From IMG/VR virus record IMGVR_UViG_3300024346_000070, positions 1 to 58,318 of that record: a stretch of 58,318 bases of DNA; one strand, 5' to 3'. A program made the translations under genes and the position numbers. Shown in pieces: positions 1-28,932 of this stretch. The DNA comes from a virus. Below the pieces are notes generated by a model. The model was given only the letters and a program-made list of their open reading frames with translations, was not told the origin of the DNA and made no database searches. Positions within the stretch are counted from its first letter, which is position 1. The number at the start of each line of letters is the position of its first letter.

Positions 1-3000
1 CATTACCATGACCCTGTTAGGGCTTCAATTGCTACTAACCTCCCTTCAACGTATGACAACGGTTCTAGTGGTGTAGGGGCTACACTTACAAACTCTAGTA
101 CACAAGCCGCTATTGTAATTGATGGCGTTTCTCTGGTTTTAAATGACCGTGTTCTTATTAAAGGCCAAACTAACGCCAGACACAATGGTGTATATAAAGT
201 AACAACAGTGGGCAACGGCAGCACTAACTGGGTGATAACCCGTACCACAGATACAGATAGTTATGGTGCTTCTGATAAAGATTCATTAGGAGAAGGCGAT
301 GCTTTCTTCGTATCTTCAGGTGCAGTAAACGGTGGTGCACTAGATGTTATGAATGTATCTGGTGCCATTACCTTTGGTACTACTGAGATAACTTTTGTAC
401 ACATGCTCGACACTACTATTTATTCTGCAGGTACAGGACTTACCCTTACAGGGACAGAATTTGCTGCAGCACAAGATATATCTACTACCGCTAACCCCCA
501 ATTTGGCACAGTTACTGCTAATCTTACGGGTAATGTTTCAGGTACGTCAGGGTCTACCACAGGTAATGCTGCTACAGCCACAGCCTTAGCTACAGCACGT
601 ACCGTACAACTCTCTGGTGATGTAACTGGTAGTGCAACCTTTGATGGCTCTGCTAATATTAACATTACTGCTGCTGTACAGGATGATTCACACGCACACG
701 TTATTTCTAACGTAGATGGACTACAGACTGCACTAGATGCTAGAGTACCTACATCACGTACTCTTACAGCAGGTAATGGTCTTACTGGTGGTGGTGACTT
801 AACTGCTAACCGTACTTTTACTGTAGGTGGTGGCACAGGCATTACGGTTAATGCTAATGATATTGCTATTGATACTAGCTATACAGATGGTCGTTATGTG
901 AATACCTCTGGCGACACCATGACGGGTGCGCTAGATATTAATGGCACAGTCACTGTAAGCCCAAACACTGCTGGTAAAGACACTTTTGAGTTATCTACTA
1001 ACGCTGTAAACGAAGCAAGACTTCGGATGAAAAATGTAGATACCACCACCGTTCAAATTCGTGCAGGGGGCGACAGCTATTTTAATGGCGGAAATGTTGG
1101 GATTGGCTCAAGCACATCTAATCACTTTTCAGTAACATCTGCCGCAAATGTATTAGGAGTTAAAAGCAGTTCTGGCGCTTTGGTTTCTCTTGCCGCAACA
1201 GGCACTAATTTTAGTGGGATAGACTTAGGCACAGACAGTCTTCGCAGGGCTGGGATGTACTCTTTAAATGGTTCAGTCTTAGGTTTTTATACCAACCCTA
1301 CAAACTCTGGCACTTCTCTAGCAGAAGCCATGCGCCTAGACAGCAGCGGTAATTTGTTAGTAGGTAAAACTACTCTAGAGTATACTAGCAACGCTGGACT
1401 TATCCTCCGCAATGATGGCCTTCTAAGCGCAGTTCGAAGCGGTGGTAATGTTCTTAACATAAATAGGCTGTCTAGCGATGGTGAGATTATTCAGCTTAAT
1501 AAAGACGGCTCACAAATAGGAAGTATTGGGACTAATGGTAGTTACATTTATGTAGGTTCAGGTGATGTAAACTTACGGTTTCATGCGGCTGCTGATTCTA
1601 TTCTTCCTGCTACTACGGGTGGAGCTACTAGAGATAGTGCGATTGACCTTGGCACTTCTGGGGCTAAATATAAAGACCTGTACCTGTCTGGAGAAGTCAA
1701 AGGTAATGCTGAGACAGCAAGTGCTTGGGAAACAGCACGTACCCTAACACTCTCTGGTGACGTAACAGGGTCAGTAAGCTGGAATGGGAGCGCCGATGCT
1801 TCTTTAAGCGCAAGTTTGTCAGCGCCTTATAGCTACATAGATACCGCCACAGGATCTTACGGCACAGTTAAAGTAGACGATGATCGTAACGTTACTTGGG
1901 CTGGCTACGCCATTCGTGACGATTGGGTGTTTATGTCAAATGGCGCAGCTAAATGTGGCCTTTACGATGATAATACAAGCGAATGGGCTGTTGAGTGTTT
2001 TACTAACGCTCAAGTAAACTTGTACTATAATGGCGTACAGGCTCTACAAACAATAGGGAATGGCATAAGGGTTGGATCAGGAGCTGCATCTGACATCTAT
2101 ATGGCAGATACAGATGAAGGTGAACGCCGTATACACTGTAACTCGAACCGGATTGGCTTCCTCAACAGTTCTAGTGGTTGGTCTGCGTACAGCGAAGATG
2201 GGGGTCTGTGGTATTGTGCGAGTGGGTTAACTGTCGCTGGCGATGCAACTTTCACGGGCGGGGCAGCTGCTATTAGTGTCGCTGCTGGCTCAGACATTCG
2301 TTTAGGTGATGGTGCTTGGACAGGTGAGCAAGACGGCAAGATACAGCATCACTCAAATGGCTTATATTTTCAAGCACAAGAATTTCGTTTTAGAAACTCT
2401 GGTGGCACTAACGTTATGGTTGTTAATTCGTCAGGCAATATGACGATTTCAGGAACAGTAGATGGACGTGACGTTGCAGCAGATGGCACGAAGCTAGATA
2501 CGATAGCTACAAGTGCAAACAACTACAGCTTGCCAGCAACACCCTCTGTCACTAGCTTGAACGTAGCTGATAAAATTATTCACTCAGGTGACATTGATAC
2601 TTACACACAGTTCCACGCAGGGGATCAGTGGCGAGTTGTAACGGGTGGTATTGAACGTTTTGAAGTCAACAACACAACAGTAACTTCTGTCGAGCCTATT
2701 TACGCACCTAGTTTCCATGGAGATGGTTCTAATCTTACAGGGATTTCAAGTGGGCTACCCTTATCTGGTGGTACTCTGACGGGTGATCTTAGTATACCAA
2801 GTAAACTTATTCACGCAGGTGACACAGACACTTATACACGGTTTAATTCAGATGAATTTAGTGTCTATACAGGTGGTACTGAACGTTTTAAGGTAAACAA
2901 TACATCTGTATACTTTAATAATTACGTTAGTGCCCCTTACTTTTCCGCTACATCTGACATGAACTTAAAAACAGATATTAAGAAGATTGTAAATCCTCTT

Positions 3001-3231
3001 GAAATGATAAGTAACTTAAACGGTTACACATTCAATTGGAAAGAAAGTGGTGAAGCATCTGCTGGAGTTATAGCGCAAGAGGTAGAAAAAGTATTGCCAT
3101 CTGCTATATCTGAAAACAAAGAAGGCAATAAATCCGTAAACTATAATGAGCTTATAGGTGTTCTAATTGAGGCTGTTAAAGAACAACAGGTTCAAATAGA
3201 TTCTTTAAAAAAAATGTTAGGAGATAATTAA
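1..3231 (+). CDS. Tail fibre with C-terminal S74 chaperone, 5' end missing
   Basis: The frame is open from the first base, so the N-terminus lies outside the window; about 1076 residues are visible. The start has a fibre module (DGVSLVLNDRVLIKGQT, NGVYKV) typical of marine phage tail fibres. Then come repeated TARTxxLSGDVTGSxxxxGSA segments (around bases 595-660 and 1730-1800) typical of trimeric beta-rich fibres. The last ~95 residues are an intramolecular chaperone of the peptidase S74 family: SDMNLK at residues 985-990 holds the Ser and Lys expected for self-cleavage, followed by GVIAQEVEKVLP and VNYNELIGVLIEAVKEQ. In this family the chaperone trimerises the fibre and then cuts itself off. 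The stop overlaps the next start (TAATG). Bases 1807-1921 recur exactly at the window end. Confidence 0.9.
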   Translation, partial: HYHDPVRASIATNLPSTYDNGSSGVGATLTNSSTQAAIVIDGVSLVLNDRVLIKGQTNARHNGVYKVTTVGNGSTNWVITRTTDTDSYGASDKDSLGEGDAFFVSSGAVNGGALDVMNVSGAITFGTTEITFVHMLDTTIYSAGTGLTLTGTEFAAAQDISTTANPQFGTVTANLTGNVSGTSGSTTGNAATATALATARTVQLSGDVTGSATFDGSANINITAAVQDDSHAHVISNVDGLQTALDARVPTSRTLTAGNGLTGGGDLTANRTFTVGGGTGITVNANDIAIDTSYTDGRYVNTSGDTMTGALDINGTVTVSPNTAGKDTFELSTNAVNEARLRMKNVDTTTVQIRAGGDSYFNGGNVGIGSSTSNHFSVTSAANVLGVKSSSGALVSLAATGTNFSGIDLGTDSLRRAGMYSLNGSVLGFYTNPTNSGTSLAEAMRLDSSGNLLVGKTTLEYTSNAGLILRNDGLLSAVRSGGNVLNINRLSSDGEIIQLNKDGSQIGSIGTNGSYIYVGSGDVNLRFHAAADSILPATTGGATRDSAIDLGTSGAKYKDLYLSGEVKGNAETASAWETARTLTLSGDVTGSVSWNGSADASLSASLSAPYSYIDTATGSYGTVKVDDDRNVTWAGYAIRDDWVFMSNGAAKCGLYDDNTSEWAVECFTNAQVNLYYNGVQALQTIGNGIRVGSGAASDIYMADTDEGERRIHCNSNRIGFLNSSSGWSAYSEDGGLWYCASGLTVAGDATFTGGAAAISVAAGSDIRLGDGAWTGEQDGKIQHHSNGLYFQAQEFRFRNSGGTNVMVVNSSGNMTISGTVDGRDVAADGTKLDTIATSANNYSLPATPSVTSLNVADKIIHSGDIDTYTQFHAGDQWRVVTGGIERFEVNNTTVTSVEPIYAPSFHGDGSNLTGISSGLPLSGGTLTGDLSIPSKLIHAGDTDTYTRFNSDEFSVYTGGTERFKVNNTSVYFNNYVSAPYFSATSDMNLKTDIKKIVNPLEMISNLNGYTFNWKESGEASAGVIAQEVEKVLPSAISENKEGNKSVNYNELIGVLIEAVKEQQVQIDSLKKMLGDN

Positions 3232-13552: not shown

Positions 13553-14910
13553 TGAAACGTATAATTCAAAGGTATCAAGATGGTGGTGGGGTTAACCCTA
13601 TGGTGTCAACTGGTGTCCCTGAAGGTGGTTATGCTAAACAAGCCATAGCTAACTACTTGGCAGGTGAAACTTTAGGCGGTCCCTTATCTTACGTGGCTGG
13701 TGAATCCAATGTTCCTGATTATCATGCACTCGCAGATGAGCTTGGCACAAGTGTTATTGATGGCTATAGACCAGCGACTGCGGCATCGGCTGCGGCTGCA
13801 ACAGGGGATAATAACACTGCCCATGAAGAAATGATGGCGGGTGCTTCAAATAACTCAGTCGCAAATAACACTTATAGCACAGGCTCAGGTGGCGATACAA
13901 GTTCTTGGGTAACTGATCAAGAAACTTATGGTGCTCCTGGTGGACATTGGGGTGGCTCATCTGAATACGAAGCCAACTTGATCAACAACCCTTATATTGG
14001 GGATGAAGAATTTTGGGATACATATGAATCAGGTGAAGCATCTGGCAGTACCTTCTCAGGTGGTGGGCGTGATGGTGCTGGTAACTATGGTATAGCAGGT
14101 GATGTTGGCGCGGCAATTTATGATGCTGCTGGTAACTTACTTAACGGTTCACTTATTGGTCGTGGTTATACTGCACTCACTGGTAACAATTTACTAGATC
14201 CGTATGATGCTACAAAGTACCCTGATGGGGTTGTGCCAAACGAATATAATCCTGATGGAACTCCTAAAACTACAGGTTTAAATCTTACAGGACCAGTAAA
14301 CCCTAACCTCTCCTTAAAAAGAGGTGGTGGCTACAACACATCAGATACACACTCAACACACAACGATAGCATAGCGAAGGACGAGGCCAGTCGTGGAGCA
14401 TTTGGCAATGCAATTTGGAGCCCAGCGTTAGGTAGGCATTTAAATCCTACTCAAGTTGCAAACAGGAGAGCAAATGGTCTACCTGTTAACAATGGTGGTT
14501 TTATAGGTCCACTTGTTAAGGGATATAACAATGGTGGAGTTTCCTTGGCTAAGTCAGGTATTCGTGAAGAAGAAATACAAGAGCGTCAAAGGATGCAAGC
14601 GCGACTGCCTCAAGTGCAACAGAATCCACTATCAGATGTAGGATATAAACTTGCCATGGGAACTGTAGACAAAGGTATTGAATCTGCAGCATCTTCCTTA
14701 GCAGGCCAAGGTGCTGCTGGTGCTGCTGGTGCTGGTGCTGCTGGTTCAGGTATGATGGCAGCTCTTGGACCTATTGGTATTGGAATTGGTCTAGGTAAAC
14801 TGTTTGGTGTGTTTAACAAAGGTGGTAAAGTTACGTGTTCTTGTGGGAAACCTAACTGTAACTGTTCAAGTAAAATGAAATATTCCCCTTTAGGAGGAAG
14901 TTATGATTGA
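13552..14910 (+). CDS. Ejection-complex protein with GG-repeat motifs and Cys cluster
   Basis: This encodes 452 residues. Low-complexity Gly/Asn-rich sequence carries repeated Y(Q/N)xGG motifs (YQDGGGV, NNGGFIGPL, YNNGGVSL), as in marine phage virion proteins of this position. Residues ~385-425 are Ala/Gly-rich and hydrophobic (GAGAAGSGMMAALGPIGIGIGLGKLFGVF), plausibly membrane-inserting. It ends with a compact CSCGKPNCNC cluster that could bind metal. The gene overlaps the next by 8 bases. The next protein opens with more GG motifs, so the two may once have been one polypeptide. Function is inferred from neighbours. Confidence 0.6.
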   Translation: MKRIIQRYQDGGGVNPMVSTGVPEGGYAKQAIANYLAGETLGGPLSYVAGESNVPDYHALADELGTSVIDGYRPATAASAAAATGDNNTAHEEMMAGASNNSVANNTYSTGSGGDTSSWVTDQETYGAPGGHWGGSSEYEANLINNPYIGDEEFWDTYESGEASGSTFSGGGRDGAGNYGIAGDVGAAIYDAAGNLLNGSLIGRGYTALTGNNLLDPYDATKYPDGVVPNEYNPDGTPKTTGLNLTGPVNPNLSLKRGGGYNTSDTHSTHNDSIAKDEASRGAFGNAIWSPALGRHLNPTQVANRRANGLPVNNGGFIGPLVKGYNNGGVSLAKSGIREEEIQERQRMQARLPQVQQNPLSDVGYKLAMGTVDKGIESAASSLAGQGAAGAAGAGAAGSGMMAALGPIGIGIGLGKLFGVFNKGGKVTCSCGKPNCNCSSKMKYSPLGGSYD

Positions 14911-17900
14911 TAAAACAGACCCAACTAATAGGGACACTGTACCTGCTATACTTACTCCTGGAGAGTTTGTACTCAACAAGGAAGCAACTCAAATGTTTGG
15001 CCCTGTAGTTGAGCAAATGAATAACGCAGGCTTACAGCATCGTGCAATGAAAAACATGGGTGGTGGTATTCAAAACTACAATGATGGTGGTTTTGCGTGG
15101 CATAAAAACTACACACCTGAGGTTGAAGCTGCTATAGTTACAGCGGCAACTAAGTATGGTATCGATCCATTAACTCTTAAAACCATTGTCTACCTTGAGT
15201 CTAGGGGAAACCCTGAAGCTCAATCAAAACAGTCATCTGCTGGTGGCATCATGCAATTTTTAGATAAGACAGCTAAATCTTACAATCTTGAAAATCGTTT
15301 TGATGTTAATGAAAGCCTAGATGCAGGTGGTAAACTACTGACAGATAATGTTTCTCATCTAAGAAGTGTTCTTGATCGTGAACCAACACCTGCGGAAACA
15401 TACCTAGCACACCAACAAGGAGCAACAGGTGCTTTACGATTGTTAAAAGATCCATCTATTAATGTACTAGATGTAAAGAACATGACAAAAGATAAGGTTA
15501 TTAAGAACGGTGGTAATGTTGACATGACTGCTGGTGAGTTTGCAAACATGTGGATGCAAAAAGCCAACAATGCTTCTAAATTTATTGGGGGCGGTGACAC
15601 AAACACACCTGCACAACCCACAACCCAGACAGTATCCGTAGCCCCCATTACTTCCATTCCTCCTCAAATGAGAAATGATACAGTGTCATCTCCACGTCCT
15701 CAAACGAGACCTGAAGAACTAGTTCCTCAAATGGTAGCTAGTAACCAGGTAGAACCTTTAGCTATTGAACAGGCAGTGATGCAAGCTAGTGTACCACAGG
15801 TTCAAGCAGTACCCCCATCACCTTCAAGCTTTGGTGAAGCCTTCAAAGATGCACGAGCTGACATGGGAGCGGGAGGTATCTTTACCTTTCGTGGTAATGA
15901 TTATACTACTAATTATGCTGAAGAAGAAGATAAAAGGATGACTGCTAACATGGGTGGTGCTGTTTCTCTCAATATGGGAGGTTACCCACAAGAGTACTTA
16001 GATAATTATCGTAAAGCTATAATGGCTAATATGGGTCCGGAGTACTTGTCTAGAGTAGAGAGAATGGGAGGTGTAGACGCTGCTCGTGAACTACAAGCGC
16101 AAGTTCGTCCAGACTATACACCAGGTAATGTGGAGGAAGACTCTGCTTCATCTCAGCCTATGGCATATAACGATCCTGCTTTAAAAGTTAGATCAGATGG
16201 TATGATTGATTTAAGAGGCTCGGGAGGCTCAGATCGAAGGCTAGACAAAAACTTATATTTATCACAACCTGGAACTGGTATGACAACAGAAGAATCTATA
16301 GCTAAGCGTAAGAACCTTGCGTCTAATAGTTATGTACCGATGCCAAAAGTAAACAGTGATGAGTCATTACTTCAAGGCTCTTCTCAAAGCGTTGAGAATG
16401 CTGCTAGTTCCTACCCAAGTGACTACTCAATTATGGCTGCTGCTAACATGGCTGTGCCAAAGATTCCATTACCTCCTCCAGCACCCAGACCTACGATGGT
16501 CGGTGGTAATTTGTACTACTTAAATTCAGATGGGTCTGTAACTGATGGGAATGGTAATCCTGTTCAGGATCCTAGTATTGGTGCTGCTGTTCAGGATAAA
16601 CTCAACTACAGTGCAGAGGAATCTGCTGCTAATGCAGAAGCTTACAACGACTCTATGGCTGAGCAGGCGGTATTCAATGGTATTGCTCCACAGTCAGTAA
16701 ACCCAAGCTATGATTCAATGCGTCAACAGCAAGAGTCTAATGCTGCTGAGGCAGAAAGGATTAGGAAAGAAATTGCAGAGACTAATGCAAAACGTGAAGC
16801 CCTTAGAGTTGAGTTTAACAATAGGGAGCCAGCAGTTGTCCCACCATTAGACCCTAATGCACCTACATTTATGGGTGATGTTGTACCTTATCTTGGAAGG
16901 GCTGCTGGTAGTTTAGCAAGCAATGTTGGAGATACTGTCAATGAGTTTATGGCATCCCCTGCTTTACCTGTAGGATCAGTTGATGTTAATAAAGAGTATA
17001 GGGATATTAAGTCTATACTTGCAGGTGGTGTTGATAGAAACGGTGTTCCTTTAACTGACAATCAGATAAGAGCTTATAATACTCGTATTGGAGCTATAGA
17101 AAAAGAAAGGGACTACAATGATAGGATGGAACCATTTGGTGCGGGTCAGGTATTTGACACTGTTATTGAGAGTGGTAACCAACTAGCCGCAGATGTGAAC
17201 GATTACGTCACTGATAAGGTTGGGAATGTTGTTTCAGGGTTTAACCCCGAAGCTGGTGCAAGCGTATTAGATAGTAAACTAGGGTACGCACCACCACCAC
17301 GCCGTGAATTAACTGCTGATGAAATTGAATTTAATAGGCTAAGGGGACTGACTGGTGATACCACCCCTGAACCTGAAAACAATATCTCAAAAGTTGAAAA
17401 GGTAATTACCAACTTAGAAAAAAACCCTGAAGTATTACCAACAACCACTGTTTCTGAATCAGCTGCAGCCAAACAGGCAGCTGCAGCCAAACAGGCAGCC
17501 GCAGCCAAACAGGCAGCTGCCTCTATAAAGGTTGATCCAAAAGACCCTAAGGTATCCGGTGCCATGTCCACGCTTAAGAGTGTCTTCGGGGATCTGTTCG
17601 ATAGTAAAGAACTCATGAGAGCTGCTATCATGTACCTTGGTGGTCGTGCTACTGGTATGGATGGTAACCAAGCTCTTGCCTTTGCTGGTAAGAACTACAT
17701 TGCTAGGACTGATGCCAAGACAAGTTTCTATAATGAACAAGCTACATCTGGTAAGTGGACTAATGGGAGTCTTGCTAAGTATAGAAAGACTCGTGATCCT
17801 GCAGATCTGATTCCGGTTGGTGCTGTTTATAAAAGATCCTCTAAGGATGCTGAGGTATGGTATAATAAGAGGACAGGAAAAACTATCGTGTATGAGCAAT

Positions 17901-18649
17901 GGCAAGCAGGTAAGGATGGTAGCTATGTTACTGTTGAGGCTGGTAAGAACCCTATGGACCCTAATGCTAGGATTAATTACAGCATGGTTACTCAAGATGG
18001 TTCTAATGTGGTTGGCACAGATGCATATAATGCTAGGATTAATTCCAACAGAGAAAGCTACGCAGATGTTATAACTGCAGAGTTGCTGAAGTCTGAGATT
18101 CCTGCGGAGGATGGTAGAGCCAAGTCTAATTACCTAAAGGATATAAATTCTACCACAGATTCAAAAATCGTTTCAGATTTTGCTAAAAAATATGGAATTG
18201 ATCCAGACACTATGGCCCTAGTTCTTAGAAATGCTATGGTTAAGGCAACAGAAGATGTTAGGTCTACTCGTATTGATAAGGTTACCACTCTTGGTCCATA
18301 CCTTAAAGAGTCTTACATAACAGTCAACACTGGTGATAGGTCTAACTTTATGGTTGGTAATGGTAAGAAGGGTGACGAATACTCTGAAAAACTTGTCGGC
18401 ACTGAGGAATTTAGTAGTTGGTTGGCACAAACCCAACGAACATTAAGTCAATTGAAACCAGGTGCAAACCTAGATCAATATAACCCTGTTCAATTCAGTC
18501 AGAAACTTATGGAACAAGCTATTTATCAGGATTGGATAGGTCTAGATGAAGACATAAAAGCTAAGTACGCAACTGACGGAAGTCCTAATAGAAGTGGGTT
18601 TATGGAATACGTGACTGAAAACTTAGCGAAGGGTGCATTAAACTCTTAA
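14903..18649 (+). CDS. Virion-associated lytic transglycosylase, 1248 aa
   Basis: The N-terminus has DTVPAILTPGEFVLNKEAT, a motif common in phage virion proteins. A soluble lytic transglycosylase (SLT) domain covers about residues 70-170. The catalytic Glu is E99 in YLESRGNP, followed by SSAGGIMQF and later AYLAHQQG-like TYLAHQQGATGAL. It would cut peptidoglycan locally during DNA entry. The remaining ~1000 residues are Pro/Ala-rich linkers, an AAAKQAAAAKQ repeat (about residues 853-873, coded at 17460-17520) and a helical C-terminal half. The size and order match T7 gp15/gp16-type ejection proteins. No separate endolysin was recognised in the window. Confidence 0.8.
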   Translation: MIDKTDPTNRDTVPAILTPGEFVLNKEATQMFGPVVEQMNNAGLQHRAMKNMGGGIQNYNDGGFAWHKNYTPEVEAAIVTAATKYGIDPLTLKTIVYLESRGNPEAQSKQSSAGGIMQFLDKTAKSYNLENRFDVNESLDAGGKLLTDNVSHLRSVLDREPTPAETYLAHQQGATGALRLLKDPSINVLDVKNMTKDKVIKNGGNVDMTAGEFANMWMQKANNASKFIGGGDTNTPAQPTTQTVSVAPITSIPPQMRNDTVSSPRPQTRPEELVPQMVASNQVEPLAIEQAVMQASVPQVQAVPPSPSSFGEAFKDARADMGAGGIFTFRGNDYTTNYAEEEDKRMTANMGGAVSLNMGGYPQEYLDNYRKAIMANMGPEYLSRVERMGGVDAARELQAQVRPDYTPGNVEEDSASSQPMAYNDPALKVRSDGMIDLRGSGGSDRRLDKNLYLSQPGTGMTTEESIAKRKNLASNSYVPMPKVNSDESLLQGSSQSVENAASSYPSDYSIMAAANMAVPKIPLPPPAPRPTMVGGNLYYLNSDGSVTDGNGNPVQDPSIGAAVQDKLNYSAEESAANAEAYNDSMAEQAVFNGIAPQSVNPSYDSMRQQQESNAAEAERIRKEIAETNAKREALRVEFNNREPAVVPPLDPNAPTFMGDVVPYLGRAAGSLASNVGDTVNEFMASPALPVGSVDVNKEYRDIKSILAGGVDRNGVPLTDNQIRAYNTRIGAIEKERDYNDRMEPFGAGQVFDTVIESGNQLAADVNDYVTDKVGNVVSGFNPEAGASVLDSKLGYAPPPRRELTADEIEFNRLRGLTGDTTPEPENNISKVEKVITNLEKNPEVLPTTTVSESAAAKQAAAAKQAAAAKQAAASIKVDPKDPKVSGAMSTLKSVFGDLFDSKELMRAAIMYLGGRATGMDGNQALAFAGKNYIARTDAKTSFYNEQATSGKWTNGSLAKYRKTRDPADLIPVGAVYKRSSKDAEVWYNKRTGKTIVYEQWQAGKDGSYVTVEAGKNPMDPNARINYSMVTQDGSNVVGTDAYNARINSNRESYADVITAELLKSEIPAEDGRAKSNYLKDINSTTDSKIVSDFAKKYGIDPDTMALVLRNAMVKATEDVRSTRIDKVTTLGPYLKESYITVNTGDRSNFMVGNGKKGDEYSEKLVGTEEFSSWLAQTQRTLSQLKPGANLDQYNPVQFSQKLMEQAIYQDWIGLDEDIKAKYATDGSPNRSGFMEYVTENLAKGALNS

Positions 18650-18670
18650 ACAAACACAAGGAGATTTTAA

Positions 18671-21600
18671 ATGGGAACATTCAATGAGTTATTTGATTTC
18701 AAGCCCGATGCTTTAGTCGGTACTGATTATTTCTTCATAGATGGTGACACATTAAATAACCCCAATGGCCCTAACTATCGTCTTCGTGGGTTTGATACAG
18801 CAGAAGTATCTAAGATGCTTCATACTGGAGAGTTCAAAGAAGGTACTGCTGGTGGTCGAGAGACTGCCAGCATTATATCAAGGCTTGCTAATGAGCAGGG
18901 GTATAACAATGTTGTACCCCAGTTCAATGCTGATGGTTCTCTTGCTATGGATAATCATGGTCGTCAATTAATTGAGTTACACAATAAGAATGGTGAATCT
19001 TTCGGCACTGAAATGCTTAATTCAGGTGCTATGGACATGACAAGATACTCGACTGATGGCGACAGGATGAAAAAGTATCGGGCGGAAGCTGATAGGGATC
19101 TCCAAAGAAGGATGGGGACCTACGAACCATCTGATTTCGACAAGGCAGCTATAGAAATTAAGGATGCTGAAGAAGCTGAAGGTGCAAGATCTCTTGGGTT
19201 CAAGAAGACACTTGCAACTGAGGCGGATCGTGGGGCATACGTTAATTACTTCATGCAGGCTGAAGGTCTATCAAGATCAGATGCTATTGTAAGAATGAAT
19301 GATTACTTTAACATTACTCCCAGTATTGGATTTAGTGGGGTTGATAGGAACTACACATCTCTCAACCCTAAGATGGATTCTTTAAAGCAAGGTATGATTG
19401 GGGTAGGTGAGAGTGCCTTTGGTATGGCTAACCTTCTTGGATATGTATCTGATATCGAAGGGTTGGAAAACTGGGGTGAGCAAGGTGTTAAACGTCAGCG
19501 TGAAAAGCAAGAAAAGATTGGGTACCTGCTGAATAACTACAAAGAGATTGAAGGTGCTGGGGATGTCTTCGAGTACCTTGGGAACACAATGGCTATGTCT
19601 CTACCATACATGGCGACAATCGCTGCAGCAACAGTTGCAGCTCCTGTTACTTTTGGATTATCCTATACAGTACCTGTCAGTGTTTATGCTGGTCAGAACT
19701 GGAATGAGATGGAAGGACCTAACGAAAACAAGTCAGCTTCCATAGCCATTGGTGCCGCTGTTGCTATGACTGTTGCTGATAGGTTTGGTCTCCAAGCACT
19801 CAAGGGTGTTGGTGGATCCCCTACAGCTATGCTTCAACAACACGCAAGGAACTTAGCAGCTAGAGATGGCATTACTTTACCGACAGCTAGGAAGATGGTT
19901 AAGGAAAGTACGGATGAGATAATTGCACAGTTTTCAAAAGAGGTCCATGAGAAAGCTAAAGAGCAACTTAAATCTGCAGCCACTACTAAGAGGATTCTAA
20001 AAGATGTTGGTGTTGGTTCATTAGGTGAAGGGCTAACTGAGGTTGCTCAAGAAGCTATTGGGTACACAGCAGCAGTTGCGGGGTCTGATAAGCAATTTGA
20101 TTATCAAGAGTTGGAAGAACGATTGATCAATGCAGCTGTTGCTGGATCAGCTTTAGGTGCAGGGTTCTCTGTTCCTGGAACTGTTAAGGATCAGTTGGGA
20201 TGGATGGATGCAGCCGCAAGGTACGGCGTACCAATTGAGTCCACAGACGTTGAGAGATATGAATCTGAAGAGTTAAATTCCCCTAGCCCTGACTACTCAA
20301 CCAATGGTATGATGGATGGGGTTGAAACATTGTTGTCTAAAGCTGCAGTTAAAATAGCTAAGACTAAGCCTGCCCCCAAAGGTAAATCAAAAACTAAAGT
20401 TAAAACAAAGAAGCCTAGCTTACAGCCAAGGAAAGATGCTCATAGAGTATCTCAAGGTAGTAAGACATACATGGAACGTGCATCAGAAGCTGTGATGAAT
20501 GCGTCTAACTTATGGCAGAGCCACATCACTAACACCTTTACAAAAGACCTGTTAGATAAATCTCGTGCAGCTCGTGCTTTACATTCAATACTTGGTGGTG
20601 GTTTAACTAACCTACATAGTGGGTCAGGGTTTGAAGCTGCACAGCACCACTTGATGACAGCATACACAAATCAAGTATCACATCCAGCAACTTTCTGGAA
20701 GGCGTCTGGCTTACCAACCTTTGCAGGTGTTCATAGATCTTCTCAAAAAGCTAAGATGAGTGATCAGATTTATGCAGCATGGAAAGCAGCCCGTGATAAT
20801 GATGGCGTCTTTTATCCTGATAGGGTACCTCAGAACACTCCGAACAGGGGGTTGGTTATTAGCCTTGGGAATGAACTTATTGCATTGGGCACTAAATTAA
20901 GGAATGATCAGATTGCTTCTGACCCAGAACTTAACATGGGTCTTGTGGAGAGTTACCTCCAAAGGTACAGGGCTCTTGATAAGAGGGCTGTTCAGAATGA
21001 TCCTGAAGGATTTAAAAAAGCTTTAATGAGTATTGAATTTAAAAGTGGTAAGAAAATCTCAGCTGCTCAAGCACAAGAAATTGTAGATGATATAATAGAT
21101 AACCCACTTGTTGATTCACTTTCAGATGCAATGTCTTCTAACATAGGCTCATTGAACCCCTCGTCACATAAGAAAAGGACATTAGATCTTTCAGAACAAG
21201 AAGGGTTCGATGCTTTCTACGAGAGGGATGTGTTTGCAAACGTAGCTAAGGCTAGTAAGTCAGCTGCAAGATTTGTAACTCAGATGAAATATGTTGGTAA
21301 GGATGGGGAGGTAATCTCTCACTTCTTAGATCAAATGGAAGCTGAGGGTGTCCCACGGGAAGAGGTAAACAAGGTAGCCTCTAGGGTGTTTGATGGTTTA
21401 GAAGCAGTGTCAGGTAACTACAACAGGCCGACTACTCAAGCTGGTAAAAAGCTTATGAGGTTCCAGAAGAATGTAATGTTCTGGATGACACTCTCCGCCT
21501 TACCACTGGCTACATTCTCCTCACTCCCTGAGTTGGCAATGTCACAAGGTGCTCTAACCAAGGATCAAATCTTTGGGGAAAACAATAGTATTAAAGCTAT

Positions 21601-22744
21601 TGCGACTGAGTTTTCAGCAGCATTCATACCACTACTTCGTAAGGTTGAAGATGGGTCTGATGATGATGTCCTCAAGCCGGATACATATAGTAAGGGTCAG
21701 AAGATACTTAATGAGGTGATGGGATCATCTTGGGAAGTTGGAGCTGCTACTACTGTGGGTGTTAAGGAAGCCTCTGAGAACCGTAAGGAAGTCATGGAGT
21801 TCTTCTTCAAGGCTATTGGTCTTACACAGTTTACTGATTACACTCGTGCTGTTCGTGCATCCTTTGCATATGACTTCATGTCCTACAACGCTAAGATAAT
21901 AAACAATGGTAAGATGGGTAGGCTTAGGCGTGGTGATGAGTACAAGACCCGTCAGGAACAAGAGGCGGAGCAAAAGCTTAGGAGCATTGGTATCCCCATA
22001 GAAGAATTTGTGGGTATGCATATTGATTTTGAGGCAGAAGGGCTTAAGTATTTCGAAGGGCCTAATGCAGTCTACTCTTTAGACCAGTGGAACACTATTA
22101 TAAAAGAAGGTACGTACAACTTTATCAATCAGACAGTCCCACTTCCAGGTGCTATGAATCGTCCTTTGATCTATCAGGATCCTAGGTTTGCTCTGTTCAC
22201 ACAGTTCCAAGGTTTCATATCTACCTTCACAGCTAATCAGATACCTCGTATGTGGAATGATTATATTAAACGTGGTAGTCCATCGATGAAGTTTAACACC
22301 TTTGCAATAATGTCTACAATGATTGCTCTTGGGTTCTTTTCACAGGCCATAAAAGACTCTATTAAGTTTGACGATGATGATGATGAAGGAACTCTAGGTA
22401 ACCCTTATTTAAACAAGCCTGAGTATATTCGTCGTGGTATCATGGCATCTGGCCTTTTAGGTACAGGTGAAAGGGTCGTCGATATCTTCGCTCCTATCTA
22501 TGGTCAAAGGTCTGACGGGGGAGTTGGATGGGTGTACGCCCAAGCCACAGGTGAGAGCCCCTCTCTAGGTTACTTAGCTAGGGGAGGTACTTCTCTTTCC
22601 AAACTAGCACAAGGTGATGTGGAAGGATCACTGTATAATGCCATGCGAATGGCACCTGGTATTGCACCTTTCACAGAGGGTAACAAAAGCTTAGCTAGTT
22701 TATTAACTGGTGGTGGATGGAACTACAAAGACAATGAGGAGTAA
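18671..22744 (+). CDS. Ejection protein with N-terminal staphylococcal-nuclease domain
   Basis: This encodes 1357 residues. Residues ~20-150 read as a complete SNase (thermonuclease) domain: D24-G-D26-T, then R37LRGFD42T43AE45, then GR98QLIEL and MLNSGAMDMTRY, ending with a helix rich in K/R. Spacing R37-D42-E45 equals that of R35-D40-E43 in the staphylococcal enzyme, and R98 fits its R87. Metal and catalytic residues therefore look intact. Residues ~305-375 hold two hydrophobic stretches (MAMSLPYMATIAAATVAA, IAIGAAVAMTVA). The rest is helical, with no recognised domain. As a virion protein next to the transglycosylase it is probably ejected; it may degrade host nucleic acid or process entering DNA. 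Target and activity are unknown. Confidence 0.75.
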   Translation: MGTFNELFDFKPDALVGTDYFFIDGDTLNNPNGPNYRLRGFDTAEVSKMLHTGEFKEGTAGGRETASIISRLANEQGYNNVVPQFNADGSLAMDNHGRQLIELHNKNGESFGTEMLNSGAMDMTRYSTDGDRMKKYRAEADRDLQRRMGTYEPSDFDKAAIEIKDAEEAEGARSLGFKKTLATEADRGAYVNYFMQAEGLSRSDAIVRMNDYFNITPSIGFSGVDRNYTSLNPKMDSLKQGMIGVGESAFGMANLLGYVSDIEGLENWGEQGVKRQREKQEKIGYLLNNYKEIEGAGDVFEYLGNTMAMSLPYMATIAAATVAAPVTFGLSYTVPVSVYAGQNWNEMEGPNENKSASIAIGAAVAMTVADRFGLQALKGVGGSPTAMLQQHARNLAARDGITLPTARKMVKESTDEIIAQFSKEVHEKAKEQLKSAATTKRILKDVGVGSLGEGLTEVAQEAIGYTAAVAGSDKQFDYQELEERLINAAVAGSALGAGFSVPGTVKDQLGWMDAAARYGVPIESTDVERYESEELNSPSPDYSTNGMMDGVETLLSKAAVKIAKTKPAPKGKSKTKVKTKKPSLQPRKDAHRVSQGSKTYMERASEAVMNASNLWQSHITNTFTKDLLDKSRAARALHSILGGGLTNLHSGSGFEAAQHHLMTAYTNQVSHPATFWKASGLPTFAGVHRSSQKAKMSDQIYAAWKAARDNDGVFYPDRVPQNTPNRGLVISLGNELIALGTKLRNDQIASDPELNMGLVESYLQRYRALDKRAVQNDPEGFKKALMSIEFKSGKKISAAQAQEIVDDIIDNPLVDSLSDAMSSNIGSLNPSSHKKRTLDLSEQEGFDAFYERDVFANVAKASKSAARFVTQMKYVGKDGEVISHFLDQMEAEGVPREEVNKVASRVFDGLEAVSGNYNRPTTQAGKKLMRFQKNVMFWMTLSALPLATFSSLPELAMSQGALTKDQIFGENNSIKAIATEFSAAFIPLLRKVEDGSDDDVLKPDTYSKGQKILNEVMGSSWEVGAATTVGVKEASENRKEVMEFFFKAIGLTQFTDYTRAVRASFAYDFMSYNAKIINNGKMGRLRRGDEYKTRQEQEAEQKLRSIGIPIEEFVGMHIDFEAEGLKYFEGPNAVYSLDQWNTIIKEGTYNFINQTVPLPGAMNRPLIYQDPRFALFTQFQGFISTFTANQIPRMWNDYIKRGSPSMKFNTFAIMSTMIALGFFSQAIKDSIKFDDDDDEGTLGNPYLNKPEYIRRGIMASGLLGTGERVVDIFAPIYGQRSDGGVGWVYAQATGESPSLGYLARGGTSLSKLAQGDVEGSLYNAMRMAPGIAPFTEGNKSLASLLTGGGWNYKDNEE

Positions 22745-22747
22745 CTT

Positions 22748-25700
22748 ATGAGTAAGTTTAATGTTAATAATGTATCTGGTTCTGTTAACGCAGTCGATGA
22801 TATAGATTTAGGTCTCATCCAAAACGAAGGAGTTGTAGCCCCAGAAGGGGCTGCTACCTCTACTGGTTCATCTCTTGCAGATCAATGGAGGGATTCTCCA
22901 GAGACAGTAGAGGATGTTTCAGGAGCTGTTGGTTCTTTTGTGGATGATGCATTTGCTCCAGTAGATCCAGATGAAATGGAAAGGCTTGACCGACAAAGTT
23001 TAACACCAATTAATGAGCGTGTTAGAAATCCCCAACCTGCCTTTGTAGCATCATCTGCACTAGGTAATACATCTCAGAATGCACAGTATGCAATAAGCCC
23101 AGACGGGGGTCTTGTTGCTAGGGCTGAGAAGCTTAGGACTATGGTAGACGAAGGGTATGGGGTATACGTTGGTGGTCAAGGTAACCCTGCCTACCCAATG
23201 TCCCTTGGGCCAGACGCACAGAGAGGCCCTGCATTAGCAGATTCTTATGCAGAAGCAAACGATGGGACTTTCTTTGCAGCCGCAAGTAGATCTGATGCTA
23301 TACAGTATGATCCTCTTAATGAAAAAGAAAGAGCATTAGACCCAATGTTTACAATGCTGGGTAGCGTTGTTACTGAAAACATGATGATGAATTACTTTCA
23401 GTCTCTTAAAGAAGGTGACTACTACAACCCAGAATCTGATGGGATGGATGTCGCACAGTCTTCTTTGTTAAGGGGTGGTCAAACACTTCCCGAAAGGAAC
23501 GCTGAGATTGTAATGAGTCAGTCTAAAAACAATGGTCAGATTGGACACCAGATAAACTCAGAGTATCAAACACGCAGGGCTGGTCCTCGTACAGAACAAC
23601 TTGTTAATCAGATGGTGCAAGAGATGGTTTCTCAGGGTGTGCCAGAAGATGTCGCACTTCAACAGGCACAGTCTTCACCTCAAGTTAATGAGATGCAAGC
23701 ACCTACAAGATTAACTACCAAAGAGGCTGAGACTTTAGGTGCTGCATTTAAATCACTATGGGCTAGGGCTAATCCAAACTTGGTAGATGTATATAAGGAT
23801 TCAACCCAGCAAAGGGTTTACCGATTAACCCCAGAAGGTGAGGCATTAATTGAGAAGGGTAAGGCAGAACGTGACATAGCCTTTCCACCCCTTAACGTCA
23901 AACCAAATAAGTCTCCATCTACTGAAGGTCTTAGTGGAACTGGTGTAGGTACTGTTAAGAGAGGTAAATCTGGGGGTGCTCCTGGACAGCGTATGCGTAA
24001 TATTATGAATGAGGCTAAGGGTAATCTAGGAACCATAGGTCATTTTGTAAGACCTCGACGTATGAAACTCCTAATCTCAACTATAGCACTGCCACTTGTA
24101 ACAGGTAACCACAACTCTTGGCAAGCTGAGATAAATGGTATGGGTGAAACCAAGATGAAGCAGTACAGGGCTGAGCAAGCTTCCCAAGATAGGAGGTTAG
24201 AAAAACCTGGTGCTGAAAGGGAAAAGCCATACATCCCAACGGATGAGATTAAAAAGCAGATGAATAAGATTGCACAGGAAGTTCAATCCTTAGCACAAGA
24301 GCGTAAAGGTGAAAACTTTTTAACATTCTTTTTCCAAGGGTATCAGGGCAGACTTGCAGCACAACAAACTAATTTTAATCTCACAAGCTCTAAGACTGTT
24401 CGCGCTGTAACAAGTGCGGTTGCACCTGCTACTTTTAAGATTGGAAGTCGGAAGGATAAAAACTATAGGCAAATGCAGGCCATGCTTTTAGTTCTTAAAC
24501 AGAAGGATACTAATGGTAATGTTATTGAGGAGGCTGCTGAAGATTTCTTACCTGTTGTTAGAGATGCTAAGCTCAGACTTAATGAGCCAATCCTATACGC
24601 ACATGGTAAGAGATTAAAAGAAGCGTTAGATATGTCAATGACAGACGATCAATATGAAGCTGTTGCTGAAGCTATTGCTCAAGGTGTTGCATTAGACTCT
24701 CCTAATTTCCCAAAGTTTTCTGGACTTAACTTAGATCCTACCAATGATATGGACGCCGCTATCATTAAGAACATTAATAGCCAAAAGCAAGATGGTTTAG
24801 TTTACATGGATGCCTTGATAGACTTTGCTGATTACCTAGACTTTAAAAACAACAGGGGTGACCCTGATGCTAAGCAATCTTTTAGTACACACCTTAATGC
24901 GTACTTAGATGGTAAGACACACGGGACAGCTACCAATGCTGTGCTACTAGGTGATAAGAAAATGTCTTACAAGACTGGTGTACTGAGGACTCAGCGACTT
25001 AAGTTTCTTGATGATGGTGACATCCGAGATGAGCTTATACGATTAGCAGATGCAAGTATTAGTACACCTTGGGAGAATGTATCTGATGATATTCTTGTAG
25101 ATATTAATGCTGTTGCCCGTAAGGTTTTTCAAGACAGGGAATTAGCTAAGTTGACGATTATGACTTTTGGGTATGGTAAAGAGATTCTAAGTTTTGGTTC
25201 TGCTATTGATGAAACTATTGAGTTGATATACCAAGACACTGAAACAGACTCTGGGTTTGTCAACAGTTTAGATAGGTTGACGAAGGAAGTGACGAGGGAT
25301 CAGCTTGCTGATATCTTATTGCTAAAGTATGCAGCATCTCTGGAGAATATCTTATCAGAGGATGCGCTTATAGCTAGGGAAGTTACCCGATCAGCTGCAT
25401 CTTTGTTTTCCATTATGGATATGCCCTTTATGATACGAGGAGCTACTGGTATGGAGATGTACATAGGTGGGATGGTTTCCTCTGACTATGAATCTTCAGA
25501 TAAAACTAAGTTTAAAATGGCTGATAGGTTTGGCAATGTCACTGAACAAGTGATACCACACTACACCAACACCCCAACAGCATCTGCTGCTAAGTTGAGG
25601 GGGACTGTCTCAATACCTGGAGACCATGCGTTTAGTGGGGTTGTTGTTCAACCTGTTCAATCTATTGATGCTGCTACAATGGCATTAACATTTTCTGGTA

Positions 25701-26320
25701 AATCATTTGATAGATTATCTAAAGCATCTAATGGTAAGCCTTATGCATACCCTATCTACGATGCTGTTAAGGTAGATGTTAATGGCTATGATGTTATGTT
25801 TGAAGAGATTAATCAGAACTGGATGGATGCTACGTTTGGATGGAGTTACTTTAAAGAGATTTCAAAATCTTTAGATGAAGCCACTGAAGTCTTTGAGAAG
25901 AATATCAAGAGTCGTCCTGCAGATGAAATACTATCAGCACAGCAGGCAGAGTATATGCAATTCTATCTAGCAACTGTTATTTCCTCTAAGGGTAATGAGT
26001 TAATGTTACCTTTGATGAAGAAGATTAAACAGCTAACTGGCAGAGCAGACTCTGATTATCTTTTTGATACTGTTAATATGTTTGCAAGAGAGATGCGGAA
26101 AGTAGGATACGATCCTTTCAATCCACCATCAAACCCTAACGTCAAACAGCTTAGAACTTTCTATGCTCTTATGAAAAGAGAGTTGAAAACTAAATCAAGA
26201 TTGTCTGATCTAGTTGCTCGTACAGAGGCCAGCAAGAAAGATCTTAGGAAAGAACTTCTTAGGACTGGTTTTAAAACTGAGAGTGGTAAGAGGATTGCTG
26301 CTAATTTCTACGGACACTAA
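22748..26320 (+). CDS. Putative virion RNA polymerase (T7/N4-type single subunit)
   Basis: This encodes 1190 residues, the last gene of the ejection-protein cluster. The C-terminal two-thirds carries the ordered motifs of single-subunit RNA polymerases. G534-R535 sits in FFFQGYQGRL (T7 DWRGR). Motif A is YLDGKTHG with D721 (T7 FDGSCSG). Motif B is R797-ELA-K801-LTI-M805-TFG-Y809-G, identical in spacing to T7 R627/K631/M635/Y639 and to N4 virion RNAP. Motif C is YPIYD1005, after a QSIDAATM segment that parallels T7 HSQDGSHL. The N-terminal ~450 residues are unlike T7 and may direct packaging or ejection. In N4 a virion RNAP enters with the genome and transcribes early genes from hairpin promoters. 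Assignment as polymerase is strong by motif; packaging in the virion is inferred from operon position. Confidence 0.8.
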   Translation: MSKFNVNNVSGSVNAVDDIDLGLIQNEGVVAPEGAATSTGSSLADQWRDSPETVEDVSGAVGSFVDDAFAPVDPDEMERLDRQSLTPINERVRNPQPAFVASSALGNTSQNAQYAISPDGGLVARAEKLRTMVDEGYGVYVGGQGNPAYPMSLGPDAQRGPALADSYAEANDGTFFAAASRSDAIQYDPLNEKERALDPMFTMLGSVVTENMMMNYFQSLKEGDYYNPESDGMDVAQSSLLRGGQTLPERNAEIVMSQSKNNGQIGHQINSEYQTRRAGPRTEQLVNQMVQEMVSQGVPEDVALQQAQSSPQVNEMQAPTRLTTKEAETLGAAFKSLWARANPNLVDVYKDSTQQRVYRLTPEGEALIEKGKAERDIAFPPLNVKPNKSPSTEGLSGTGVGTVKRGKSGGAPGQRMRNIMNEAKGNLGTIGHFVRPRRMKLLISTIALPLVTGNHNSWQAEINGMGETKMKQYRAEQASQDRRLEKPGAEREKPYIPTDEIKKQMNKIAQEVQSLAQERKGENFLTFFFQGYQGRLAAQQTNFNLTSSKTVRAVTSAVAPATFKIGSRKDKNYRQMQAMLLVLKQKDTNGNVIEEAAEDFLPVVRDAKLRLNEPILYAHGKRLKEALDMSMTDDQYEAVAEAIAQGVALDSPNFPKFSGLNLDPTNDMDAAIIKNINSQKQDGLVYMDALIDFADYLDFKNNRGDPDAKQSFSTHLNAYLDGKTHGTATNAVLLGDKKMSYKTGVLRTQRLKFLDDGDIRDELIRLADASISTPWENVSDDILVDINAVARKVFQDRELAKLTIMTFGYGKEILSFGSAIDETIELIYQDTETDSGFVNSLDRLTKEVTRDQLADILLLKYAASLENILSEDALIAREVTRSAASLFSIMDMPFMIRGATGMEMYIGGMVSSDYESSDKTKFKMADRFGNVTEQVIPHYTNTPTASAAKLRGTVSIPGDHAFSGVVVQPVQSIDAATMALTFSGKSFDRLSKASNGKPYAYPIYDAVKVDVNGYDVMFEEINQNWMDATFGWSYFKEISKSLDEATEVFEKNIKSRPADEILSAQQAEYMQFYLATVISSKGNELMLPLMKKIKQLTGRADSDYLFDTVNMFAREMRKVGYDPFNPPSNPNVKQLRTFYALMKRELKTKSRLSDLVARTEASKKDLRKELLRTGFKTESGKRIAANFYGH

Positions 26321-26375: not shown

Positions 26376-26666
26376 TTATTTAAGCATACCTTGTTTTGCA
26401 AGAAGCTCACGATACTCCTTCATCTGCTCATGCTTTCGTTGTTTTGCTAACGTAGTGTCTATAATACCACCCTCTAGATCCTCTGCAATACCAATGTCTA
26501 TGACACGCGGCATGAGATCTTTTGTATACGCTAACTCTAAATCTAGAGCTGTCTTAGTCAATCGATTGGAGTTCCAATCAGAGATGAACTCATCGTCATC
26601 TACTTGAACACCTCGTAGTGCTAAATGATTATATGATTTACGCGAAGAAGTAGTCACTGTTTTCAA
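26376..26666 (-). CDS. Small protein downstream of RNAP
   Basis: This encodes 96 residues and overlaps the 3' end of the RNAP gene by 29 bases, suggesting translational coupling. It is charged and helical, with an acidic first half (VQVDDDEFISDWNSN), a middle ALDLELAYTKDLMPRVID, and a basic C-terminus (LAKQRKHEQMKEYRELLAKQ) that could bind nucleic acid or form a coiled coil. No family is recognised. As the last gene of the minus arm, right before the terminator, it may modulate the polymerase; that is only suggested by linkage. Confidence 0.65.
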   Translation of the reverse strand: MKTVTTSSRKSYNHLALRGVQVDDDEFISDWNSNRLTKTALDLELAYTKDLMPRVIDIGIAEDLEGGIIDTTLAKQRKHEQMKEYRELLAKQGMLK

Positions 26667-28932
26667 TCTCCTTTATATCTAAGCTGCCCAATGTGGGTTG
26701 TTCCACATCATCCTCAGCATCTGTAATGAAGTTACGTATAACCTCAAAGTAATTATCGTAGTCGTACATACGTATGAATATTTGTTTGGTTAGGTCGAGT
26801 AGTTTATCCACATCACTGGCATGAGTACTGAAGCTATCATGCACAGCTGCAAAGGAACCATCCCACTCAGAGATAACCAAAGCCATATGACTAGCATCCA
26901 TAGAGTGAATGTAGTTAGGCGACATGCCACAGATAAAACCTCTCCTGTCTGGCATACGTGTAGGCACAAGGGCTACGTGTGTAACTTGACCTGTCTTGTT
27001 ACCATACCCTTTGATACGTCCTCTAGCTTTCCTGTCTTGCATGATCCATTTCTCATAGATCACATGGAACCCTGAAGGTGTACTCCACTCAATCCGATCT
27101 TCACCCTTACCATGTTTAAGACTTGTTGTAAACTCTTTCAGTTTAATCACAGTATCATTAAGTTCATATAGATCTTCATCTGTCTTGAAGTTTTTCTTCA
27201 TTAGGGTGTCACGTATCTTAGACAGGTTCCTATACTCAGTGTTAGCTTCGTAGCCATCTGAGTCTACTTTCACATGTGTACCCAATTGGTACATCGCTAG
27301 GTTCTGTAAGTAACTCATAGTAGATAGTGGACCTGGGCACACCTTATCAATTGCTTTGATCAGCAGCTTAGATAGTTTAGTGCAATCATCTTGTGTGATG
27401 TCATAATCTGTGTGGTAGTCTTCCGATTTACAATCAAAGAACATGTTCTCAGCTATCTTCTTAGACCCTGCCGAGTATGCCCTAGTCATAGAGCCACGTT
27501 TGGATATACCTTTACGTATGCTCTTCATGGGCATGTTGTTTAGGATACTATTGAGTCGATCATCTTTACAAAGATTGATCATCTCCTTAGCTGTTTGAAC
27601 ATAGAAATCTTTCTGTATCTCTGAAGGTATTAGACCAACCAATCCACCAGTCTGTGAGTCCTTAGAGATTGCTCCAAGGTGTTGCCAACCATTGTTACTA
27701 CCATCGATGGGGATAGGTAGGCTAGTCATGTGAATACGATTGTCTCTATAAGCACAGTCAAAATCATACCACTCAACACAAGCCGCGAGAAAAGATACTT
27801 TCTTCTCAGCCTGATCAGAGAACTGTGAGTTTTTACCAGCATGTACGATTTCATCCATGTATTCGTTTGTCCACATGATACGATCTTCTAGAGTCATTTT
27901 ATCAACAGATATATTATCTAGTCCTTCTTCTTCAAGGTGACCTTTATAATCAGATGTACACCACTCAGGTATCTCATCTATATTGTAGGACATGTTGAAG
28001 ACAGACGCTGTGTGTATAGCCAACCACTGTAACCCACTTTCAGTCATGGGCTTTGAGTGCTGGAACTTAAACAATCCCCTGGCTAAATCTGATCCTTGAA
28101 AGTTCATAAAGCTTTCGCAGTAGTAGAACCTGCCGCGATAATCTACATCTAGGTATTGATAGAACTCCTCTAGTTCTGATAGCTTACGTGCCTTCTCTGA
28201 TATAAATGCCCACTCAACCATCTTGCTCCTACGTTTAAGCTCTTTAGCATCGTTGTCTTTAATAGGATCAGTAGATATGAACAGGTCTTTGTTCTCAACC
28301 ATCGCATTGTAAACTGGCTTGTTTATCTTCCAAGCAGTCTGCTGTAGTTTGTTAAGAGCTTGTACCCAAGGGGCATATGGATCTATCGCATCACCATCTA
28401 CTCTACCTTTGATTACTGGTCTGTGAACACCATTGATCTGCTGTATCATACCAGCTATATCTTTGGGCCGTAAGGTACTGGTAGATGCTAAGGGAAAGCT
28501 CCCACCTTTCTCAGGTATCACACCTAACTCGTACCACCTATGGGACGCAGACACCACATGACAGCTGTTACGGGTCTTAGCATAGGACAAGTCGATAAAC
28601 CCTAGGTTGTATAAGGCTTCTACGAACAGGTCTCCTATGGACACTACAGAGCCCCAGGGAAGGGGCTCTCTATCTAGTTCTTTACCCACACTCTGACCTA
28701 TTTTACTAGATGCATTAGTAAGTGTGGAGGTACCAGCTGGGCTTGAACTAGTATCTTTAGTGAATTGCATTTGAAGTATGGAGATACTTTTCATAACGTA
28801 ACTTTCCATACGCTCACTGTAATTTCCAGACAACCTCATCAAGAGCCCAGCAAGATGGGGCCTTCGACGTGCAGGACTTACACCATCTACCCTCTTGACA
28901 AGGTAATCAACTATCTCTTGGAGTGCTGACAT
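26638..28932 (-). CDS. T7-like DNA-dependent RNA polymerase
   Basis: This encodes 764 residues (T7 has 883). Motifs: DYRG-R268, motif A PIDGSNNGWQHLGAI with D410, motif B K478-RGS-M-TRA-Y486, and motif C SPNYIHSMDASHMAL...VHDSFS with D699. All catalytic residues are present. The N-terminal promoter-binding part is shorter than in T7. Motif B has YS where T7 has YG. Five promoter-like sites with core TAAGTTCCTTATAG are its likely targets. Unlike in T7, where RNAP is the first gene, here it is near the far end of the minus arm, so something else must transcribe it first. Confidence 0.95.
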   Translation of the reverse strand: MSALQEIVDYLVKRVDGVSPARRRPHLAGLLMRLSGNYSERMESYVMKSISILQMQFTKDTSSSPAGTSTLTNASSKIGQSVGKELDREPLPWGSVVSIGDLFVEALYNLGFIDLSYAKTRNSCHVVSASHRWYELGVIPEKGGSFPLASTSTLRPKDIAGMIQQINGVHRPVIKGRVDGDAIDPYAPWVQALNKLQQTAWKINKPVYNAMVENKDLFISTDPIKDNDAKELKRRSKMVEWAFISEKARKLSELEEFYQYLDVDYRGRFYYCESFMNFQGSDLARGLFKFQHSKPMTESGLQWLAIHTASVFNMSYNIDEIPEWCTSDYKGHLEEEGLDNISVDKMTLEDRIMWTNEYMDEIVHAGKNSQFSDQAEKKVSFLAACVEWYDFDCAYRDNRIHMTSLPIPIDGSNNGWQHLGAISKDSQTGGLVGLIPSEIQKDFYVQTAKEMINLCKDDRLNSILNNMPMKSIRKGISKRGSMTRAYSAGSKKIAENMFFDCKSEDYHTDYDITQDDCTKLSKLLIKAIDKVCPGPLSTMSYLQNLAMYQLGTHVKVDSDGYEANTEYRNLSKIRDTLMKKNFKTDEDLYELNDTVIKLKEFTTSLKHGKGEDRIEWSTPSGFHVIYEKWIMQDRKARGRIKGYGNKTGQVTHVALVPTRMPDRRGFICGMSPNYIHSMDASHMALVISEWDGSFAAVHDSFSTHASDVDKLLDLTKQIFIRMYDYDNYFEVIRNFITDAEDDVEQPTLGSLDIKEIENSDYFFA

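Follow-up and report, generated by a model that had tools for sequence, protein, structure and literature searches.

The window analysed here is the whole of a 58,318-bp virus record (IMG/VR record IMGVR_UViG_3300024346_000070), and its plus strand carries a 1357-aa open reading frame (ORF; 18671..22744) in which an N-terminal staphylococcal nuclease (SNase) domain is joined to a long helical virion-protein body. The ORF starts with ATG and is preceded, 7 bases upstream, by a Shine-Dalgarno GGAG (18660-18663, plus strand). Profiles and the predicted fold place the SNase domain at residues ~16-150 (18716..19120), and the body comprises residues 160-1357 (19148..22741), both on the plus strand. 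A preliminary description, made from the sequence alone, had proposed that D26, R37, D42, T43, E45 and R98 reproduce the catalytic residues of thermonuclease and their spacing. All six are at the claimed positions in the window protein, which has equivalents of SNase D19, D21, R35, D40, E43 and R87: D24-G25-D26 (18740..18748) matches D19-G20-D21, R37 (18779..18781) matches R35, D42 (18794..18796) matches the Ca2+ ligand D40, E45 (18803..18805) matches E43 and R98 (18962..18964) matches R87 (all plus strand). The spacing is reproduced exactly only from R37 through D42 to E45 (R35-D40-E43 in staphylococcal nuclease), whereas the D26-R37 interval is 11 residues rather than 14 (-3) and the E45-R98 interval is 53 rather than 44 (+9), the phage domain having a longer loop ahead of the R87 equivalent.

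The relationship to SNases is recovered by family profiles. Relatives were gathered from IMG/VR using the full protein and alignments, and one of the searches used patterns lying within the body only, so the nuclease domain was not selected for among the relatives that it fetched. When the profile of a 52-sequence N-terminal alignment was searched against all PDB sequences, the five best matches were thermonuclease chains (best E 2.9e-4), with DGDT, R37, D42, E45 and R98 falling on active-site positions of SNase. Against a set of 32 SNases from Alphaproteobacteria and other bacteria, retrieved with PF00565, hhalign gave a probability of 98% and an E-value of 2.7e-13 over 127 columns, with all catalytic columns aligned. 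The window protein by itself had no SNase match in single-sequence Pfam, PDB or PHROG searches, PF00565 run directly on the window gave no match though the same model works in control genomes, and a profile of the 14 closest sequences was too narrow to give an SNase match yet. The Pfam SNase model does match 10 of the 52 family members (best 2e-4), and the missing match for the window sequence is a limit of sensitivity, the domain being ~20% identical to staphylococcal nuclease and so below single-sequence detection. PDB matches to WD40 designs were discarded as repeat artefacts, their per-domain E-values being in the hundreds or thousands.

Structure prediction, which the preliminary description had suggested as a check for an OB fold of the SNase type, returned an SNase fold. 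The AlphaFold2 model of the N-terminal domain, built from 51 sequences (predicted local distance difference test score (pLDDT) 91.8; predicted template modelling score 0.83), has its strands and helices in the order typical of SNases; the 50 top-ranked PDB chains in the Foldseek listing were all staphylococcal nuclease (best E 2.3e-4), and VIA-align superposed 117 residues on staphylococcal nuclease with a Z of 9.8 and a root-mean-square deviation of 3.9. In a viral structure library, the best match was a 1368-residue protein (the length of gp34 of Roseobacter phage CRP-7, a member of the family described below), followed by free-standing viral nucleases. Seven columns of the domain are invariant in 51 divergent relatives, and four of these are among the six residues originally claimed (hypergeometric P 1.7e-5); a fifth active-site-region residue among the invariant columns is D24, the equivalent of SNase D19. 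The 1357-aa ORF with an N-terminal nuclease domain is thus borne out by profiles, predicted structure and conservation, and on sequence and model together the domain is a true SNase domain.

Conservation of the active site was assessed in 68 distinct sequences, consisting of the window protein and 67 relatives with identities down to ~22%. D24, D26, R37, E45, R98 and G108 are invariant in all 68, so that the expectation of conserved catalytic residues in homologues holds for D26, R37, E45 and R98 but fails for D42 and T43. The D42 column contains D in 37 sequences, S in 12, E in nine, N in seven, T in two and Q in one, and the T43 column contains A in 49, S in nine, T in eight and V and M in one each. 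On a tree of the body, built from residues 160-1357 with the nuclease domain excluded, the state of D42 changes at least 12 times. T43 corresponds to SNase T41, which binds calcium through its backbone, and variation at this position is therefore harmless. D42, on the other hand, is the counterpart of D40, a side-chain calcium ligand. In staphylococcal nuclease mutants, changes of D40 are less damaging than changes of D21, E43, R35 or R87. The labile D42 position predicts a metal dependence that is relaxed, or other than that of a classical Ca2+-only SNase.

The typical bacterial SNases in the comparison set keep both D40 and E43. The set also contained a degenerate alphaproteobacterial SNase-like class (L143, L144, L146-L148, L150-L152, L156, L158 and L163, all from alphaproteobacterial genomes) in which QAPK, or MVPK or EAPN, replaces DAPE, so that D40 and E43 are both lost; the D21-type acidic residue and the R35 and R87 equivalents are retained, and from these sequences the class is probably non-catalytic. 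The phage family differs from both groups in that the general-base Glu and both Arg residues are fixed while the ligand Asp is free to vary. This pattern of conservation indicates that catalysis is very probably under selection in the phage family, and the simplest reading is that catalysis has been selected while the metal site has been tuned differently between lineages.

Several observations connect the body to virion proteins. It matches the virion structural protein family phrog_6958 (E 2e-16), and residues 237-503 and 888-1237 are homologous to gp51 of Pseudomonas phage tf (E 1.8e-8 and 5e-11, respectively), which shares the body, as does the LUZ24 gp50 'phage particle protein'. The virion proteins of LUZ24 were identified by electrospray ionization tandem mass spectrometry, and gp50 does not appear by number among them in the text consulted (PMC3517423); virion presence of this lineage is accordingly likely, not quoted. 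The model of the body is almost wholly helical (pLDDT 68), as would be expected of ejection proteins. Its PDB matches were rejected as spurious alignments to long helical proteins, mostly transporters, with template modelling scores of 0.15 or less.

The SNase domain is present in all relatives with an intact gene. It is absent from interrupted genes on two contigs (L002, L020 and L054 on one; L034 and L105 on another) and from tf gp51, which starts without it. Median identity to the window protein is 32% for the N-terminal domain and 34% for the body, indicating that domain and body have been retained to a similar degree. Among isolates, the closest one found is CRP-7, a podovirus of 58.1 kb that infects the RCA lineage of Roseobacter; its host is the marine Rhodobacteraceae strain FZCC0042. 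Its gp34 (QBQ72827.1) belongs to the same family (28% identity in the N-terminal domain, E 9e-5; E 4e-16 for the C-terminal body), has the full catalytic set and lies in the same gene order as in the window; it is annotated only as 'hypothetical protein', and the main text of the CRP-7 paper contains no word starting with 'nuclease' (PMC6918029). Family contigs (L132, L133 and L134, the last being NZIO01000029.1) also occur in bins of metagenome-assembled genomes labelled Candidatus Pelagibacter, Dehalococcoidia and Bacteroidetes; these are probably phage contigs in bins, and the host hints that they give are weak.

In its structural genes the window resembles SU10 and LUZ24 (SU10 portal 9e-128; SU10 major capsid 4e-77). 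The window also encodes a primase-helicase, a family A DNA polymerase, a 5'-3' exonuclease, ThyX, ribonucleotide reductase, MazG and, on the minus strand, a T7-like RNA polymerase (26638-28932); neither a tRNA nor an exact terminal repeat was found in it. A tail-fibre-like protein at 208-3231 (plus strand) ends in an S74 intramolecular chaperone domain (Pfam 7.9e-15). Immediately upstream of the SNase gene, a 1248-aa protein (14903..18649, plus strand) carries a lytic transglycosylase SLT domain at residues 79-154 (Pfam PF01464, 1.3e-13; phrog_22520, 9e-41), and immediately downstream lies a 1190-aa protein with motifs of single-subunit RNA polymerases (22748..26320, plus strand). With these two ORFs as flanks, the region resembles an ejection module. 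T7 endonuclease I (PF05367) was found neither in 11 family records, several of which may be fragments, nor in CRP-7, and 14 control genomes gave none; it is present in phage tf (L131), whose particle protein lacks the SNase domain. That the SNase domain substitutes for this endonuclease is only suggestive, given the few data points.

Weak database matches of the 1190-aa protein to RNA polymerase prompted a 48-sequence alignment, in which D721, G722, T724, G726, K801, M805, Y809, G810, D974 and D1005 are invariant. Motifs A, B and C occur in order with the catalytic Asp residues (DGxTxG at 721-726, K801..MT..YG, D974 and D1005). When the family was compared by hhalign with a profile for the T7-like RNA polymerase that the window itself encodes (E 3.6e-6), DGxxxG was paired with motif A, SIDAATM with SMDASHM, and the stretch around D1005 with the catalytic HDS motif; a PDB sequence search with the 1190-aa protein gave no match. 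Many relatives contain ExDGxxxG, a motif of the N4 virion RNA polymerase (PMC10654107), and the polymerase-like gene follows the SNase gene across relatives. CRP-7 gp33 gave no match in a direct BLAST with the 1190-aa protein and is detected by the family profile (E 6.5e-9) as a distant member. By its sequence this product is a divergent RNA polymerase of the single-subunit type, and the polymerase motifs, ExDGxxxG and synteny together make it a candidate N4-like virion RNA polymerase, encoded in addition to the T7-like enzyme.

Taken together, we favour, with moderate confidence, a model in which the 1357-aa protein is a large internal protein that a short-tailed marine phage ejects, its competent nuclease tip cutting host nucleic acid at entry. 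The protein would be assembled into the virion core together with the transglycosylase protein and the RNA-polymerase-like protein. On adsorption, these proteins would exit before or with the DNA and build a path across the envelope, which the helical body would form or line. The SNase domain, released or unmasked at the inner end of this path, would then act at that site as a metal-dependent phosphodiesterase without sequence specificity, its substrate most likely being host DNA or RNA close to the point of entry. Such cleavage would put the host or its defences out of action and supply phage nucleotide salvage. The parts of this model differ in strength. Homology and synteny make presence of the protein in the virion very likely and its ejection into the host likely, and catalytic activity of the domain is quite likely; delivery with the DNA is plausible from the homology to the LUZ24 and tf 'phage particle protein' and from the transglycosylase and polymerase-like neighbours. 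That host nucleic acid is the target has somewhat less than an even chance.

Several points weigh against this model. The position of the Ca2+ ligand (SNase D40) is replaced in 31 of the 68 sequences and, with the number of changes on the body tree, this indicates that a strictly Ca2+-dependent mechanism is not conserved. Classical SNase needs approximately millimolar Ca2+, which is available in seawater and in the periplasm but not normally in the cytoplasm, and a role on the host chromosome therefore does not readily suggest itself. Any non-specific nuclease inside or close to the virion in seawater endangers the phage DNA and must be masked. Finally, the model of the body has no credible fold match in the PDB (none at E <= 0.001). 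The calcium need and the protection of the phage's own genome make action in the periplasm or at the entry point, masking or a changed metal need likelier than free digestion of the nucleoid. A more specific proposal, that marine podoviruses eject an N4-like RNA polymerase and, alongside it, an active and covalently tethered SNase that masking or metal control keeps inert in the particle, is offered tentatively; if it is true, this would be a class of virion cargo not described before, and host nucleic acids would come under attack as the incoming genome begins early transcription, ahead of phage gene expression.

Rather than being aimed at the host, the nuclease could act on the phage's own DNA or transcripts, by trimming or nicking the packaged or entering end, by detaching ejection proteins from the genome end or by cleaving RNA made by the co-ejected polymerase. 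The domain and the genome would be confined together, the covalent tether implies a small working range, the polymerase-like protein adjoins in the same operon order, and the labile metal site could reflect attenuation; nevertheless, the domain gives no sign of sequence specificity, the SNase fold being normally non-specific, and genome-end cleavage is already supplied by the terminase (Terminase_6C) in the window. We consider this alternative unlikely. A role in counter-defence or superinfection, in which the nuclease destroys defence nucleic acids or cuts the incoming DNA of competing phages in the periplasm, has precedent in the ejected proteins Dar of P1 and internal protein I of T4, which counter host defences, and the availability of calcium in seawater favours the periplasm. 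Yet a domain that is fixed throughout so divergent a family more typically serves a core function than one specific to defence, and this role is quite unlikely. It is also improbable that the domain is a nucleic-acid-binding OB-fold or structural tip for which catalysis is irrelevant, as in the degenerate SNase-like repeats. Loss of the D42 ligand in nearly half of the family, and the existence of alphaproteobacterial SNase-like proteins that have lost D40 and E43 together, would fit such a role, but D24, D26, R37, E45 and R98 are fixed in the 68 sequences and the catalytic columns are among the most conserved of the domain, whereas the degenerate homologues lose the general-base Glu. Chance resemblance of the motif in an unrelated domain, for which only the empty single-sequence Pfam and PDB searches speak, is rejected as vanishingly improbable because the profile, profile-profile, fold and conservation evidence concur.

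Both SNases and ejection proteins are well known in their own right; searches of the literature for virion or ejection proteins with an SNase domain gave nothing relevant, and in the literature searched a fusion of the two was not found. Phage destruction or takeover of the host genome is usually credited to enzymes produced once the phage has entered. A nuclease that forms part of an ejection protein would come into play before these, so that the phages described here may bring in an enzyme that cuts nucleic acids at the very start of infection; the question would then arise how the DNA inside the particle is protected from it. Since the family occurs widely among marine viral contigs and includes a cultured phage, CRP-7, the idea is directly testable: conservation of the catalytic residues yields a clear prediction for mutants, and the labile calcium-ligand position yields a biochemical one.

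Among known systems, staphylococcal nuclease (PF00565; PDB 1snc, 1stn and 4k8j) shares with the phage domain its fold and order of elements. It differs in that the D40 position is labile in the phage family, and in that the phage domain is joined to a virion-protein body of 1200 residues, whereas members of the SNase family are otherwise secreted or membrane-anchored. GBSV1-NSN of a thermophilic phage is likewise a phage-encoded non-specific nuclease, active on DNA and RNA, but it is free-standing, was reported to lack homology to known nucleases and is not linked to a virion protein (PMC2390534). The N4 virion RNA polymerase (gp50) resembles the downstream neighbour in its DGxxxG, K..MT..YG and catalytic Asp signatures, although the neighbour, a candidate virion protein, has ~1200 aa compared with ~3500 aa for the N4 enzyme, and the marine family, unlike N4 in this comparison, encodes a separate T7-like RNA polymerase as well.

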